The notes beneath the pieces are model-generated. The model worked only from the letters and a program-made list of their open reading frames with translations, was not told the DNA's origin and searched no databases. Shown here piece after piece: positions 12,751 through 38,512 of a DNA stretch of 64,000 bases. Made by a program: the position numbers and the translations under genes. The stretch is from assembly GCA_002205965.3 (NCBI GenBank), contig NADL03000458.1:744001-808000 (forward strand), written 5' to 3'. This stretch comes from Kappaphycus alvarezii. Taxonomy: Eukaryota > Rhodophyta > Florideophyceae > Gigartinales > Solieriaceae. How positions within the stretch are numbered: position 1 is the stretch's first letter; each line of letters begins with the position of its first letter.

Positions 12751-13498
12751 GAAAATGAAGCTAGCGAGACATATCAGAAAAAGTATGGCGGTATCCTGGC
12801 TAGCAAAAATTTTCAGGCGTTTGTATTGTTAAAGTCTTATAACACAGTAATCTGATCTGTTGACTAAAATACATTTAGTACTAACATTTAGCTTTAAATG
12901 ACCATTATAAAAAGCGACGGAACAGAAAGTAAATTCACAGAAACATGGGAAAACATAAAAGGCGGACACGGTAACAGGTTATTGAAACCCAGTCCTCAGT
13001 TCGCAGGGAAGACCCGAGATGGCTGCAACAGTCGGGTCGTTTGATCATTTTATTTTTTCCCCCTTAAAGGAGCTTAAGTGTGGTATCTAACTGGGGGCAG
13101 AGGAATCATCGTTGTCGGATAAGTTCAATGGGAGAGAAGAGCAACTTATTAGAGATGGATGTGGCACGAAGGTTTCTGAATATCTGAGCATGTAGTTTTC
13201 AATAGGCTACGAAGTTAATAGGGCACCGAGGCGTTCTTGAGGTGAGTAGGAGGATTTTTTACTAGCGACGTGAAGCTATAGGATACTGTACAAATGGTAC
13301 ATAAGAAAGTTGTTGTTCGCATTGTGAGAGTAGTCTGGTGTGGGAACGCGCTTGGTAAGGCTGTAGGCGCCTATTAGAAAAGGTTGAGTGTAGAGAGACG
13401 TTAGGGATTGGAAGTGGACGTCATGTGTGGTCAGAAATATCGTCGCCCCACGGGGAATTGTCTGGCTACACATCAAGAGTATATCCCTACTGCCGCCA

Positions 13499-13570
13499 GT
13501 GATCGATAAATCGATCATGCGCAATTTTTGCCATTTTGACTGTAAATGTCTAGTGATCGATATATCGATC
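13499..13570. repeat. Tandem GATCGATAWATCGATC palindromes
   Basis: A variant palindrome (TGATCGATAAATCGATCA, 13499-13516) and the exact one (TGATCGATATATCGATCA, from 13554) lie 55 bases apart. The first is followed by CAATTTTTG, and so is the copy at 17584-17601, so the outer 5' copy and the 3' copy are also direct repeats over about 40 bases. Another partial copy occurs at about 17790-17800. These flank the transposon at 13550-17605. Confidence 0.7.
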
Positions 13571-13583
13571 AATAGAGCCGTTT
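13550..13583 (+). repeat. Terminal inverted repeat, left
   Basis: Pairs with the reverse complement of 17572-17605. The match runs from CTRGTGATCGATATATCGAT through to GTTT with about three purine or pyrimidine differences. The palindromic core alone would match in either orientation, but the non-palindromic part (CAATAGrGCyGTTT) fixes the inverted orientation. Confidence 0.8.
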
Positions 13584-13833
13584 GAATAGCGTTCAAAGCA
13601 GACCGTTCAAGACTTTACAGTATCAGCTTCAACAAAACTGATTTGACAAGTGTCATGCCAGCGTTCTTCTGAACACACTCGAAGTTCAATGGTCAAAATC
13701 CGTCGAGTAGAAGTGTTGCTGCTGGCACGCACGTTTCGGAGCCAGCCAGCTCCAACACTGGCAGGCAAGAAGTCGTCTGGCACCTCACGACCCGTCCAGA
13801 TAGCCACGTGACAAGCTTTGGGATCAAGCCAAC

Positions 13834-16800
13834 ATGGATTCTACGCTGACGCTGAACGTCCCTGCACCTGATCAATTTGAGGTGACACCGCCTGCAAGTC
13901 CGACGCCCGCCCCTGCAACACAGCAAAGACAGGCTCGTCTGGTGCTCGCGTTTCGGACAGCCCACCACCACCAACCACAAGAGGACGAGGTCGGGGCGTG
14001 GGAGGCCACGAGGTTCTGCGAGAGGGCCTTCAAGGGGTGCGGCAGCTTCGAGAGGGGAGGGGTCTTTAAGAGGAAGGGGGTCTTCAACAGGGAGAGGAAG
14101 AGGATCGGGTCGAAGAGAGGGTTCTTCAGGTGCGGGGGAAGGAGAGGTGGCAGAGGAAGGGGTCGTGGAGGTAAAGCGCGTGCTCATTTGGATCCAAGTC
14201 AAGGTTGGGTGCAGGACACAACTACATGCAAGAGGTTGGTTATGGAGTCTGATTTCACAGAGGGTATCATGGAAGATCGCGCGAGAATGTTTTGCGCAAG
14301 TGCTGTCGAGAAGTTGGGGTTACAGTGCAAGGTGAGATGTATAGCTCCAACAAGGGGGGTGTTGTGATACTACTTATGGATGGGCTCTTGAATCAATTGA
14401 TGATGTGGTTGAATGAGTACATTTCGTTGAAGAGCCTTTCACAGACTAGACTCACTCTCTCTGACATGTACTGTTATGTTTCTGTTCTTTTACTGTCCCA
14501 CACAACCGGTTTCAGTTTCGAGCGTACAATTGGATTCTTACGACAGATGGGACATACGGCTCCGTCCTTAGAGAGAGTGACGTTCATATCGGAGAACATT
14601 AAGGCGTACTCTCCGATAGGACGGGGTGATGAGGGTGGGATGAGTTGGAATGCACAAAGGGATCAAACAAGACAACTTACGGAGTTCGAGAAATTGCTTT
14701 CAGGGACACTAGGAAAGTTTTTTTCACGCCCTTACAGCTATTGGTGACGCTTGACGATGATTTGTTTGGGACAAGAGCGAGTGAATCAAAGTTAAGACTT
14801 TGAGCATAGGAAGGCAGACAGAGAAGGTCACACAGCCGATGCAGTTGCTGATGCTTTGTTCGAATCGTGTTGACTCTCGATTTCGGAGACGTAGGGAACC
14901 GCATGTTGAGTCTGTACGCAAGCTAGTCTCAAGTATTTTGGATGAACGCGGAGAGGAGTCGGTCAACACATGTATCGTGACTGCGGACAGAGGCTATGGC
15001 AAGGAGGCCTTTATGAAGCTGCTTTCAGAGTTTGGACTAGGCCCAGTTTTTCGTTGAGTCCGAGCATTTGCTGCGGGTGCATCCTTTTATTGCCACATCT
15101 CTTCTTAATCCTAGTCGACAAGATGAGGAGGATGAAAGTGGTAGTCTACCGGGAAGGAGGGGAGAGTGATGTAGCCATGGGAAGTGCACCAACTCTCAAA
15201 ACTCAAGCTCAAGAAGGGGGACGCAGTGGTGGAAGGTGGTGTGGGAATGGGGCAGAGGCAAGGAGCAGGGAGCTACAGGAAGCACCGAAGCTGTAAATCA
15301 ACCTTCGGAACCGGCTACTAGAAATCTGTACACTCGGAGCTGGAGCTCGATCGGAGGAAGGAGTTCGTAATAGATGACAGTCCAGCTTTGGGGCCTGCCT
15401 GTTTCTTTGCCACGAAGTCGGTTGGAGCGGGTTGTCGGGTTGGTCAAAACAGGATTACGGCTGTTGCTGTTAGAGAGCATGGCACTGCGAAGTTCTCCAA
15501 AGTATTACGCTTCATGTATACAGTACCGGATTCTATTCGCAGTAAGTTAAACACTTGGGTGGCTGTTCCCAGTTCAGGCCTGGACTTGAAACACAACTTG
15601 TTCATGGAAGTCATGGGGAGGATGAGAACTGTCGAGTGTTGAAGAAGACTATTGCCGATCGCATTCGCGAGAATTGCGAGGTTCTCACTAATGATCAGCG
15701 ATGCGCGGACTGGTTTGTACTACGTGAGTTTCGCGTGACTGGTACGAATGCGGGAATTGTGTTGTTGTCGTCTGCAGGTGTGAGGGAGACTTTTGGATTG
15801 GAACCAAGTACTAGTGGACAGGACAGGAGCGTTGTTGAATGGTTTGAACTGTTTTACAACGGCTGGTTCAGTTCTAAGGTTTCAACAGAGGCTATGAAGC
15901 GGGGTTCTGTGAATGAGAAGGCTGTTTCAAGAGCTATTGCGTCCAAACCGTTTGTCAAGGAAGTTTTTGAAGTTGGAATGATTGCCCTAAAGGTTGCAAG
16001 ACATTTGGCGTGTTCACCAGACGGTGTCGCTGTCCTACGTAAGAGCTACTTCGGGGAGTGGGGTGAAGACGTTGACGGATTTGAATGGGAGGGGGAAGAG
16101 CTAGTGCTGGCAACGGTTGAGATAAAGACGCGTGTCGCCGCGTCTACTCTAGGTGCATCAGCTACAATGGCAACAACTGATGTTATCCGATGTCAGGTGG
16201 GAGATGAAATGTTCAGGAAGTATGTTCCCAAGGAGCACATGTCGCAGCTACTTCACCAGCTAATCGTTTCACAATTTAGCTTCGCGTTGTACGTAGCTGC
16301 AGCAGAAACTGGGTTTTGTACATGGTGATTGTTAAGTGCCCCATCGCTATTCGACAATCTTGTTTCCAGGCTTTGAAGGATATTGTGGACCCGATAGTAT
16401 CCTGGGCTTATGAATCAGAACCCACGTTCCCTTTGTATGTCAAAGACGATTGGAAGATGACTCTGTCATCCAGGCTTCAATTCTGGCAGATTGCTGATGG
16501 TTATGTTAAGCGTCAGGGGCCATTTCCTCCGATCAAAGTGTTTAAACATGGGTCACGAGCTTTTATTCCAAAACAAAAGCTGGAGTAGATGGAGCTACAC
16601 AACTGAGGGCAATACTTCGCTCACCTTCATCCCATCTACATTGGGAACAAAAGGTGGTCTCGCAGACAATCAAGACAGTGACGGTGAATTCTTTTGTTGG
16701 GTGGCGCATGTACGAGAGGCGAGATCTAGTGGAGTCTTCAGAGACGTTTCGTTCACTGGATAGCTACAGAAACTTGCTTAACAAGGTCCAATCAACCGCC

Positions 16801-17539
16801 GAGTTTATGCTTGATGTATCCCAAGAGCTGTTAAGTCATGCCGCTCTTTTGTCGTCCGTCTCTGGTAAACCCATGAATGAAGTCGATGAAGAGGATGCTT
16901 TGCAACATGTTCCTGGCTCTGTTTCCAAGGAGGTCAAAAGGATAGTTCGTGACGCTAACAGCAGGAAAAACAAACGCTTGGCGTACTTCAATAGCACAGA
17001 CGGTAATCTCTTGCGACTAACTCTGCGTGGACATGAGCCATTGCTTCACAAATCCCTTTACTGTTCTCTATGCGGTCAACACAAGGTCGGCAAGCGAGGA
17101 CACCGATCTTCCTACCAATGTGCTCTCTGCAACGTCAACTTGTGTATTAAGGTATATCCTGGTTTGCGGAAGACATGCTGGAGTTTGTGGCATAACCAAA
17201 AGGAGCTGAAGCTAAGAAGAATTCCCGAGCCGCCCGCCCGACCGAGGGTAGTGGGGAAGTTGCGCAAGCTATCCCTGCTCCTGACGATCCTCAAGATGCT
17301 GCAGAAGACTTAGGACGTGAGCAGGAAGCTGGGGAAGATGGGTTGGAGATGGTGGCAGTCGGAGAAGAGATAGAGTAACAACAAGGCGCTCTCGTCGTGT
17401 TGCGTCCAATTCAGAAACGCCTACACAAGGAGAGACAGCGCCGCGGACTCGCGCAAATGTTGGTCGTGGTAGAAAACGAAGGGCTACAGCATCTACGGGT
17501 CAAGATGCAAGAGCAACTGCGAGAAGACGAGGCACCTAA
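13834..17539 (+). pseudogene. piggyBac-like transposase with YqaJ nuclease
   Basis: The first block (13834-14367) is a low-complexity Arg/Gly-rich leader. 14292-14747 carries the N-terminal helical domain (LMDGLLNQLMMWLNEYI, ISENIKAYSPIGRGDEGG). The first Asp lies in LVTLDDDLFGTRA (14753-14758), the second in TADRGYGKEAF (14986-14988), followed by HLLRVHPF. 15388-15642 is a linker. About 15640-16430 is a YqaJ-type PD-(D/E)XK nuclease: RGSVNEKAV, SPDGVA (Asp 16020-16022), VEIKTR (Glu 16119-16121, Lys 16125-16127) and QLLHQLIVSQ. The third Asp is in GVDGATQLRAIL (16588-16590), before HWEQKVVSQTIKTV. The C-terminus (about 17055-17200) is Cys/His-rich (CSLCG, YQCALCNVNLC, CWSLWH), like the piggyBac zinc-binding domain, and ends in a basic tail. 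At least five frameshifts are present, one at a T7 run (14718-14724). All catalytic residues of both domains remain. Confidence 0.72.
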
Positions 17540-17571
17540 GGCGTCCTGTTGGCATAGCTTTCCTTGTAAAT

Positions 17572-17605
17572 AAACAGCCCTATTGATCGATATATCGATC
17601 ACCAG
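17572..17605 (-). repeat. Terminal inverted repeat, right
   Basis: Right-hand partner of 13550-13583. It lies 33 bases after the apparent stop codon of the transposase (TAA at 17537-17539), the tight spacing normal for a DNA transposon. Confidence 0.8.
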
Positions 17606-18128
17606 CCAATTTTTGACCTCCATTTCCCCACCTTAGAACCCAAACTCACCGCTTTGCTGTGTCCACAATACTCGAGCTTGACCTCTCAAACTTGGCGTGC
17701 CATGAGCTGATGACCCTCTCATTTGCTCTATCTAATCAGATCCTTGATCCGATTAAATGCTGCGAACTATGAACAATTCAAAGTTGTGAGACATATATCG
17801 ATCACAAAATTTCGGCATTAGGGATATTAAACATTGCAGAAAATGATGAAGGACCAGGGTGGAAATGTTTTGAGCGAAAAATCATTGGTGCAGCAAATTT
17901 TCTTGGAAAATTTCAGAGAGAAATACTTTATTTAAAAGAAAACTGTCCAATCCTGGTTTTTGATAAGAGCCAACGCACCCAAACCACTGGAGTAAATAAA
18001 GACCTTTAAGAAAAATTTCCAAAAGGGCTACAGAAGCGAGTAACAAAATACACACCGGCCACTTCTTAATTCTCTTTTTATAAGAACACGTTTTTGTTCT
18101 TTATTTTCCCCTTCCAGCTCCAGCACAT
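17606..18128. other. Gap after transposon, no gene seen
   Basis: About 520 bases without a convincing open frame. It includes a degenerate copy of the palindrome (ATATATCGATCACAAAATTT near 17793) and otherwise ordinary AT-leaning sequence. Confidence 0.5.
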
Positions 18129-35918: not shown

Positions 35919-37646
35919 CTAGGTTGCGATCGGGATCGCGACTTTTGTCCTCAGTGAGCGAAGTCCGCAGCGCCAACTGTTAATTGTGTGGCCTTGGTGC
36001 GAGTGGCCGATTTGAAGGGCGACGCAATAGTGGTGTTGCAGGCGAGTGGGAGGGTCGCGACGTTGGGGCGTTGGCCAGGGGAAGGACAAAAATATCCGTG
36101 GGGCAGAGGTCCGTCGCCGGAATGAGGGGCGGTGCTTCGATCTCACAGTCGCGGCCGGCGGCCCGCATGACATGAGTTACCAGATCGCTTCGGACAGAGT
36201 TGCGCCGGTAAAGATGACCGAAACGGGTAGGACAGAATTCTGCTGTATGGTTAGCCAAGGCGTCCATGGGTTTATTACAGTGCGGACAGAAGATGGGCGG
36301 GGTCTGGGTACACAGGTATGCCGTGGTACCTTTATTAGCATTAATTGTCTGTCGAGGACCCGTTAGGAGGAGGGGCGGGCATCGAGGAAGGCGGAAATGG
36401 GGCTGTGGTAGAGGGCGTGTCCTCGGATGCGGAGCAGTATGTCCTAGTCGCTATGTTTGGAGAGAGAGGGGTTGGTCTCCCAGTCCGCGTCGCGCCAATG
36501 GAGGCAGGCCCGCGCGTCTTGCTGCACCCTTCTTAGTTTTGCTTGGGTATATTGAAGGGATGCAGCAGGGACCATGGGGTCAAGGTCCGAAAGGGCAGCG
36601 GGATCATGATGGCCCGGGATACGGCCGGCGAATGCATGAAGGAGCGGGCCGGCCTGATCCAGGAGGGAACGCCGGTCTCCAAGGCACGGCGATTGTAGAA
36701 GGTCTGAATTTTGGGAGTAAGAGTGTCGGGCGGTGCGATCGCGAGGAGGGGCTGCGTCCGTGATGCTGGTAGCGGCGATGCCAACGAGGAGGGGGCCAAT
36801 TTCGGAAAAGCCAATTCCACCAAGGCGGATCGGAGGTAGGCTTGGTCTAGGCTGGACAGGTGAATGGAACGTCGTTGGGCTTCTCATGGAACTCCCGCAT
36901 CGTAGAGTCCGCAGAATCCGACGCATGGTGAGCGTCCTAGAGGCGACACGCGTTTAGAATTAGGCACGTGGAAGCAGAGAGGCGATGCATATGGAAGCGG
37001 GCTTGTGGGTCTCGGATGAAGTGGAGCTTCTCGAGGTTTCGACGGCAGGACGCGATCTTCGTGCAGAGGAACTTGTGCATGTAGTCACGGGTGCTGATCG
37101 GGGCACTGAGGAGCTCGAAACAATGGCGGGGGCAATGCTGCAGTGAGAAGTCGGAGAGAAACTTCGCGCGCTGTAAGTGGTGTGTGCGGCCAACAGATGC
37201 GCATGTTGACGTAGAGCCAAGGGAAGGGCCGTGTTGCATAAGTGTGGCGAGTGCTCGGTGGCGGCGAGTAGTGTGCTGACTAGTGTGCCATCGTTTGCAC
37301 ACCATTGATTGAGGATGAAATCTGCTTCTTCCGCAAGCTCATGTAAAAGGGGCTGGATGGCGGGGGAGAACATGAGCATGCTGGCCGGGTCACCTTGGTG
37401 GATGTCCTGTGTGCTTAGAATCACGGTACGCTCACGGTCTTTGCCGAGGAGCGGAGGTTGCGAGCGGCCATAGACCATGTTGATGAATCGCGCGAGAGTG
37501 GGCATGTGGGCAGGAAAGATGTTGCGCAGCGACTGCCTGTTCATGCGGTTGAACGCGCTAGATGCATCAATAAGGACGACGGCGACCTGGTGGACGTCGG
37601 AGAGGTGATGGTGGAGGTTTCGCATATCACACACAACGGCATCCAC
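35919..37646 (-). pseudogene. RLE-type non-LTR retrotransposon, copy B
   Basis: 5'-truncated at about 37646. Minus-strand blocks in order: AVVLIDASSAFNRMNRQSLR (RT A motif), a degenerate B motif (DIHQGDPASMLMF) and CANDG where YADDG is expected, so the catalytic Asp pair is lost. After a stretch in other frames comes PIRLGGIGFSEIGP (the GGLG motif, about 36810-36860). 35919-36267 holds the zinc-knuckle and endonuclease start (ANHTAEFCPTRFGHLYRRNS, CPTDIFVLP). Sequence is clearly diverged from copy A, so it is another family or an older insertion. The mutated YADD indicates genuine inactivation rather than only indel error. Confidence 0.7.
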
Positions 37647-38512
37647 CCCGGACTAAAACAATCCCATTTGCCGTCTGTTGGGGGCGCAAATTTCTCTGGT
37701 GTCATCAATGGCGTGAGGGAGGAAAGTCTTCGTAACTATGCGGCGGAGAACAGTCGCGACAGATTTGGGGCGGATCCTGCCTGTTTTGGCTGTATGCGAA
37801 GGAGTGTAGCGGCAGGTTGATGTCGGCGCTGTGTGGGGAACGCATTCCTTACCTTTACTTTCATCTCTGCGCAGCGCCATCACGCGGGGGGGGCCGGGGA
37901 GGGGAGGGCGAATTGGCGGGGGCGGGTCGCTGTTGAGGAAACCAGACGGCCGGTTGCTGTGGGCGGTGAGGGCATCGACACCGAGCCTGTTTACGCCTGT
38001 TAGTAACTCACGACTGCTTTTCACAGGTCTTTACTAAGTGTGCTTAGCTTTAAGTTAAAAAAGAGTGTGATCGCCTATCCGGCACCATGAACTAAGTCCA
38101 ACTGCGACTCTGAAAAAGTACACTCTCCTTCCCCTGCCTCTTTCCCATTCCCTGCACTCTCCCAGTCTCTACCCACAATATCACCCTCCCCGTTCCCCTT
38201 CCCAACCCCCTGAAGCTGCGTCAGTCGACACGTGCCAACATGCGAGAGTATCAGGAGATACACCGGAGAGAAGACGGCGCCAATCCTGCTTCACATTGTG
38301 TGAAGACCTCGTCATTGGTCGCGAGGTTGAAGCTTCAAAGGCCTCAGCGGCAAATATCTTTAGTTCAAACTCTGTCTATGCGGTACAGTCGCTAGTCTGA
38401 CTATTCGGCCAAGAGCTAACCGGATGTTCCATGTCTGCCACGGGCAGTGGGGCACAGAATGGACATAGCGGTGGACGACCACATGACACTACTGAGGCGC
38501 CGGTAGATGCGT

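Follow-up and report, generated by a model that had tools for sequence, protein, structure and literature searches.

A 64,000-nucleotide stretch of the genome of the red alga Kappaphycus alvarezii (contig NADL03000458.1, positions 744,001 to 808,000; hereafter ‘the window’) carries, at 13485..17823 on the forward strand, a transposon whose anatomy can be given from sequence with little room for doubt: it is the relic of a multicopy piggyBac-like element encoding a D-D-D transposase, with a nuclease of the lambda-exonuclease/RecE/YqaJ type lying between the second and third catalytic Asp residues (D2 and D3). The explanation that we favour for the whole, at a probability of about 0.5, is that of a piggyBac-like cut-and-paste transposon whose nuclease would resect the DNA flanking the donor site. 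The coding region of the window copy is split over several frames with stops, so that as read it makes no whole protein. A preliminary description of the window had nevertheless put a nuclease of YqaJ type in the interval from the second catalytic Asp to the third, and other copies of the element (L009 and L010, below) hold that arrangement in one open frame.

Copies of the element in the genome

One 336.0-Mb K. alvarezii assembly of 884 contigs, which is the scope of the copy searches reported here, gave at least 149 matches to the nuclease, at least 152 to the D3 region and at least 148 to the D1-D2 region, and the element is therefore not a product of chance. Twenty loci, and then three more, were fetched for comparison. 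At the DNA level the copies fell into seven multi-copy groups, approximately 94–99% identical internally and approximately 63–73% identical to one another, plus single loci; the high identity inside groups means that several lineages have probably transposed fairly recently. In the genome copies retaining the parts concerned, the order was the same: D1, D2, nuclease, D3 and a Cys-rich domain.

The search for intact full-length homologues suggested in the preliminary description succeeded in part. Long open frames do cross the domain joins: one of 958 amino acids (L010) starts upstream of D1 and continues past the nuclease and D3 into the Cys-rich domain and tail, D2 being replaced by Glu and the nuclease Asp by Asn, and one of 975 amino acids (L009) takes in D1, D2 and the whole nuclease, its frame breaking near D3. 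None of the homologues read in this genome, however, was seen to be fully intact. From the overlap of the two frames the full protein is estimated at roughly 1,150 amino acids. An intron-borne nuclease was ruled out by the open frames that cross the joins, and chance nested insertion by the recurrence of one domain order in many groups; no intein splicing motif was noticed by eye, a dedicated search not having been made.

The Asp codons singled out beforehand in the window were found to encode D1 (TLDDDLFGTR; 14753..14758, in frame piece 14633-14803), D2 (TADRGYGK; 14986..14988, in frame piece 14785-15057) and D3 (KAGVDGATQ; 16588..16590), all on the plus strand. Conservation was scored in 24 loci, namely the 23 fetched and the window. 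The D-D-D triad, as in piggyBac, is widely kept, with Asp in 19/22 readable loci at D1 (a count in which the window itself was read in a shifted frame), in 18/22 readable loci at D2 and in 23/24 loci at D3. Between D2 and the nuclease, the stretch 15322..15642 (+; ATKS..RFMYTVP) is possibly the counterpart of the piggyBac insertion-domain strands, an assignment made by inspection only. The nuclease domain itself occupies 15639..16325 (+), with Glu at 15915, Asp at 16020, Glu at 16119, Lys at 16125 and Gln at 16257. These residues are kept in 24/24, 21/24, 23/24, 24/24 and 23/24 loci respectively, so that each member of the YqaJ/lambda-exonuclease active-site set (Glu, Asp, Glu-x-Lys, Gln) is present in 21–24 of 24 loci; we take their roles to be those of lambda exonuclease.

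Association of nuclease and transposase

No nuclease-free sister was found among the copies examined in this genome. When the first 94 of the at least 152 D3-region matches were compared with 144 of the 149 nuclease matches (five second pieces of the same loci having been dropped), 63 had a nuclease match within 2.5 kb on the same strand. Six of the other 31 were fetched, and nuclease sequence lay between the D2 side and D3 in 6/6, part of it being deleted in one (L038). Spacing is no more than an indirect sign of the nuclease: using 146 of the 148 D1-D2 matches and 150 D3 matches, 72 pairs lay within 6 kb (71 loci; C767 is counted twice), 71 of them spaced 1.3–2.9 kb apart and one 0.7 kb. In the copy with the 0.7-kb spacing (L055), all sequence from upstream of D2 as far as the nuclease end is missing, and its loss of D2 as well marks it as a deletion rather than a nuclease-free ancestor. 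One 1.5-kb copy (L056) has lost part of the stretch and kept most of the nuclease, a 1.3-kb copy (C454:626150) gave a partial nuclease match, and the other 1.5-kb copy (C45) was not read.

Internal mid-gene deletions were observed in L031, L055, L056, L038 and L027, the joint in L031 overlapping by 4 nt in BLAST coordinates. Such deletions would fit interrupted gap repair and, equally, ordinary decay.

The nuclease domain

The profile comparison proposed in the preliminary description came out in favour of a YqaJ assignment: window piece 15546-16325 matches Pfam YqaJ (PF09588) above the curated cut-off (25 versus 22 bits, E = 2.6e-5). PHROG 434 (phage RecE-like recombination exonuclease) was matched by the three members tried (L029, 6.2e-7; window piece, 4.1e-5; a third, 1.2e-3), and the NCBIfam lambda-exonuclease family was matched far below its cut-off. 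Among trimmed nuclease domains, 13/16 matched YqaJ at E ≤ 0.1. A genome-wide search with the YqaJ profile returned four matches (best E 8.6e-7; best copy 36.6 bits), all on loci of this transposon family. That search, which scored 12 candidates and missed most family members, revealed no free-standing YqaJ gene, and because it missed so many of the family a diverged separate gene could escape it. Homologues with transposase and nuclease as separate genes, which would have told against the preliminary description, were not seen in the one genome searched. No relatives were found in viral contigs or in prokaryote genomes (the latter searched with the nuclease profile only), and a phage collection yielded just two matches, at E 1 and 7, with no close relative.

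Between subfamilies, the proportions of non-synonymous and synonymous differences (pN and pS) in the nuclease were 0.34 and 0.81 (14 pairs pooled), compared with pN 0.25–0.33 and pS 0.81–0.86 in the D1, D2, strand and D3-Cys parts, 0.45 and 0.78 directly after the nuclease, and 0.54 and 0.85 in the C-tail, the synonymous sites being saturated at these distances. We interpret the pattern as a sign of selection acting on the nuclease while lineages were active. Within subfamilies the pN/pS ratio was 0.62–0.94, and 0.83 for the nuclease (19 pairs pooled); these ratios are inflated by frame errors in broken copies and are as expected of copies decaying after insertion.

Ends and target site

The element had been delimited at 13550..17605, with 34-bp inverted ends. 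Genome copies instead align to the window over a longer interval, L030 and the outer parts of L031 running from 13481 (or 13479) to 17827, and the supposed ends, repeats of TGATCGATATATCGATCA at 13554 and 17584, proved to be internal palindromes, the inner pair of the palindrome set described below. The limits of the whole transposon (CCCTA...TAGGG, 13485..17823, ±2 nt) are given by the L030 alignment (97%) and the outer ends of L031, which start and stop there, and by an empty site that matches the joined flanks. A left terminal inverted repeat, CCCTACTGCCG (13485..13495, +), faces a right one, CCCTAATGCCG (17813..17823, minus strand), and both are part of a 15-nt inverted repeat (13481-13495 / 17813-17827), with related tips in other subfamilies. 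Outside them lie the left (13481..13484) and right (17824..17827) copies of the target site, ATAT.

Twenty-one copies were examined for ends, three of which (L012, L014 and L022) were omitted for want of a mapped end. Ends were placed by a script seeking ATATC or GATAT beside the alignment ends, with which the raw alignment ends agree within a few bases. The remaining 18 copies all had the form ATAT-CCCTA...TAGGG-ATAT, a few tips carrying point changes. Paralogous empty sites contain a single four-base site. The joined flanks of the window copy match one such site, L054, which lies on a different contig (88% over query 1-487 of 504) and has ATAG where the flank join has ATAT. L017 lies inside a high-copy repeat that gave 40 matches, two being L017's own flanks and the 38 others spanning the junction; in ten fetched copies of this repeat there were four bases and no gap at the junction in 10/10, and ATAT in 5/10 (by eye). 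It may be, all the same, that only two bases are duplicated, since duplication of TA within A-TA-T and duplication of all four bases of ATAT would leave identical sequences. The L017 repeat, of which at least 38 copies match over the insertion point, is a useful set for insertion-site mapping.

Palindromes near the tips

With positions numbered from the CCC tip, the scanned stretch had its best palindrome at bp 16–33 on the left in 17/18 elements and at bp 20–37 on the right in 8/18. Seven elements, representing six subfamilies (the L012/L014 group excluded), were scanned further, and inner palindromes with at least 8/9 pairs began at left bp 69–71 in 7/7 and at right bp 223 or 225 in 7/7. In the window copy, left palindrome 1 (13500..13517, bp 16–33) has 8/9 matching pairs, while left palindrome 2 (13554..13571, bp 70–87) and the right inner palindrome (17584..17601, bp 223–240), which formed parts of the supposed left and right ends, have 9/9 pairs each. 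The right outer palindrome (17787..17804, bp 20–37) is poor in this copy and is not its best; the 8/18 elements with one at that place include six with 7–8 of 9 pairs.

Considered one at a time, many outer palindromes do not outscore base-shuffled sequence (for instance P = 0.36 for L010 on the left and P = 0.34 for the window on the right, there at a different spot); the argument comes from their fixed place and recurring pattern. The palindrome sequence shifts among subfamilies on both arms together, as in TGATCGATATATCGATCA, TGATCAGTATACTGATCA, TGATCAATATATTGATCA and TGTTCACTATAGTGAACA. In piggyBac, bp 17–33 of the left end form a palindromic repeat bound by a dimer of the Cys-rich domain (PMC7351741). 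The tip palindromes described here resemble that site, and by analogy the palindrome at left bp 16–33 is likely to be the putative site of the Cys-rich domain.

Relationship to piggyBac

Judged by its sequence, the family is piggyBac-like and not canonical. The genome contains 119 matches to Pfam DDE_Tnp_1_7 at E 1e-10 or better, compared with 0.072 at best for members of the nuclease-bearing family, against which not all of the 119 places were cross-checked. Six ordinary piggyBac elements were fetched, and these have open frames from D1 to D3 without the nuclease; a profile of ordinary piggyBac from the same genome finds the solved piggyBat and piggyBac structures. The six frames are of two kinds, canonical with GGVD/GGID (L033, L034, L036 and L037) and diverged with (S/A)Q(V/I)DRHNRCRQ at D3 (L032 and L035). 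Compared with the same-genome profile, the D3-to-Cys region of the nuclease-bearing family aligned its GVD to GGVD (hhalign score 33.3, E = 0.0011–0.0016), with 0/150 column shuffles scoring as high; the whole transposase minus the nuclease columns also exceeded its shuffles (0/60 as high), only the D3 part being aligned.

The C-terminal Cys-rich, zinc-binding-like domain (17062..17200, +) retains its four tracked Cys residues in 24, 24, 22 and 24 of 24 loci, and is of the piggyBac type, accompanied as there by palindromes at fixed places, to which its binding is predicted only. At E ≤ 1, zf-Tnp_2 was matched by 9/12 members (best E 9.2e-4) and C1_2 equally by 9/12 (best E 7.9e-4), while DDE_Tnp_1 was matched by 4/10 D1-D2 members (best E 0.0023); the bit scores of all three, where shown, lie below the cut-offs. 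The tip of piggyBac begins CCC, and CCCTA or a point variant of it was present in the 18 mapped elements. Points of likeness are thus the D3 motif and following helices, the Cys-rich C-terminus, the CCC tips, a four-base palindromic target and a left palindrome at 16–33 (17–33 in piggyBac). The element differs from piggyBac in its nuclease of approximately 230 amino acids, in or beside the insertion-domain slot, its ATAT target, its diverged D1-D2 region and an extra inner palindrome at each end. As for the slot, the insertion domain of piggyBac (residues 372–433) follows strand 5, precedes the D447 helix and lines the target-DNA channel (PMC7351741). In the present family D2 is followed by strand-like stretches, then by the nuclease and then by the D3 helix, and from this order and the motifs we infer that the nuclease occupies the slot of the piggyBac insertion domain.

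A number of observations weigh against a piggyBac-like element with a working nuclease. The hhalign probability of the D3 match is low (15.8–20.9%). The D1-D2 region aligned to piggyBac in register at D2 and no better than chance (15/150 shuffles as high; 11/150 for a longer version), an earlier comparison of this region (alignment A3) having given no match. The profile check against DDE_Tnp_1_7 (PF13843) put forward in the preliminary description was largely negative, with 1/12 D3-region members (E 0.072) and 0/10 D1-D2 members matching, and neither L010 nor the three family profiles found a convincing counterpart among the sequences of solved structures. Instead of the TTAA duplication of piggyBac, ATAT was found at both ends in 18/18 copies. 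The earlier claim of a piggyBac-like enzyme is supported by the D3 region, the Cys-rich domain and the ends, but not by the D1-D2 region, where no match was significant, or by the target. On the nuclease side, long frames bearing the domain matched YqaJ in 4/9 cases, all below the cut-off, and in 5/9 not at all at E ≤ 1; a single-sequence AlphaFold model of the window nuclease alone (predicted local distance difference test, pLDDT, 40.5) was unusable and supports nothing. No copy that was read combined an unbroken frame with a full set of catalytic residues, and the copies come from a single genome.

Comparison with other systems

Phage RecE, YqaJ and lambda exonucleases share the motif set and profile matches of the nuclease; those are phage recombination proteins, whereas here the domain is embedded in a transposase. 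TnsA is of the PD-(D/E)XK class. TnsAB of Tn7-like transposons resembles the present protein in uniting an endonuclease and a DDE integrase in one polypeptide (PMC8188705), but it is a bacterial end-to-end fusion with a different nuclease group, in contrast to the RecE/lambda-type nuclease within the DDE region seen here. ISL2EU elements (PHIS superfamily) are also DDE transposons encoding a YqaJ exonuclease; their YqaJ is a separate open reading frame (ORF), the transposase has a THAP domain, the tips usually start with GG and the target is A|AT|T (PMC4482050), as against one ORF, CCC tips and ATAT in the present family. No THAP domain was among the Pfam matches at E ≤ 1 of the ten frames scanned. 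KolobokP and KolobokD are DDD/E transposons of eukaryotes that have likewise gained a nuclease (His-Me finger and DEDDh, respectively; PMC9587614); they differ in nuclease fold and transposase superfamily, KolobokP being composite-like.

Among the open-access papers listed on YqaJ, piggyBac, insertion domains and red-algal transposons, no description of a nuclease inside a DDE domain was met in the text accessible, Repbase and subscription papers lying outside the search. The in-domain fusion may be undescribed, a negative of this kind being no proof.

Possible roles of the nuclease

The fusion suggests that transposition of the element and processing of the resulting break may be the work of a single enzyme. 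Members of the lambda/RecE family digest DNA 5′-3′ and leave 3′ tails. By analogy, resection of the donor flanks, steering repair towards recombination, is a tentative proposal for the role of the nuclease. The transposase would bind the tip palindromes through its Cys-rich domain and excise the element at ATAT by cut-and-paste, both as in piggyBac; the nuclease, placed in a slot lining the target-DNA channel, would then digest donor-flank DNA at the break, in the 5′-3′ direction and leaving 3′ tails if it behaves as its family does. Such single-stranded tails would divert repair from seamless rejoining to recombination with the sister or homologue, which would restore the donor copy, and copy number would rise. 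We are more doubtful of this scheme in its full form, in which two enzymes share one catalytic domain and post-excision resection at ATAT turns seamless cut-and-paste into copy gain by host recombination.

An unlikely alternative role is that of second-strand cutter at the element ends, in which the nuclease would act as TnsA does beside TnsB and replace the hairpin step of piggyBac. Both enzyme parts here keep their active residues, TnsA (5′ cleavage) and TnsB (3′ cleavage) divide the work, and natural TnsAB fusions are active (PMC8188705); the TnsAB parts are, however, joined end to end and not nested. Moreover, the domain matches YqaJ/RecE-like profiles, the TnsA profile not being among the matches, and CCC tips with four-base target copies fit the hairpin route of piggyBac. 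There is still less to recommend the idea that the nuclease now serves chiefly as an insertion domain, structural or DNA-binding, whose cutting goes unused: it probably sits in the insertion-domain slot, and single nuclease residues are changed in some copies, but across divergent subfamilies its active site is conserved to the same degree as D1, D2 and D3.

A function of the nuclease other than in transposition, such as attack on rival elements or promotion of recombination among copies, is similarly improbable. Precedents might be seen in ISL2EU, where most autonomous elements encode a YqaJ protein with a role described as unknown (PMC4482050), and in KolobokP, for which unequal crossover by means of its homing endonuclease has been proposed (PMC9587614). 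A free-standing gene would, by our reasoning, serve such ends better, however, and no separate nuclease gene was seen among the copies read. Hardly credible at all is an artefact, whether of assembly or of insertion of a nuclease element into a single transposase copy; in its favour, the window copy by itself is in pieces, but in this genome the same order recurs in loci of seven multi-copy groups, frames cross the joins and 71/72 spacings fit.

To our knowledge, the insertion domains described in DDE transposases have structural and DNA-binding functions. If resection of the donor flanks by the embedded nuclease is true, an enzyme in the insertion-domain slot, maintained by selection in many lineages of one genome, would give transposons a new means of controlling the break that they leave behind, and the element would offer a natural model for fusing a transposase to a resection enzyme. 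The proposal makes testable whether a cut-and-paste element can choose its repair pathway.

Further features of the window

Upstream of the catalytic core, the window copy has a broken, low-complexity, Arg/Gly-rich N-terminal transposase region (13834..14367, +), lying in an open frame at 13804-14367 with ATG at 13834 and similar to a region of L009. The pre-catalytic region (14253..14747, +) forms one frame piece. The whole element has a counterpart at C481:336060-340930, with shared flanks that are 98–99% identical and a nuclease region 97% identical at the protein level; sharing of the flanks indicates that the insertion was duplicated as a block, or else that the two are an unmerged haplotype. 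Elsewhere in the window, 36963-37652 on the minus strand gave a weak match to RVT_1 (E 0.0015, under the cut-off), which is probably retroelement debris.

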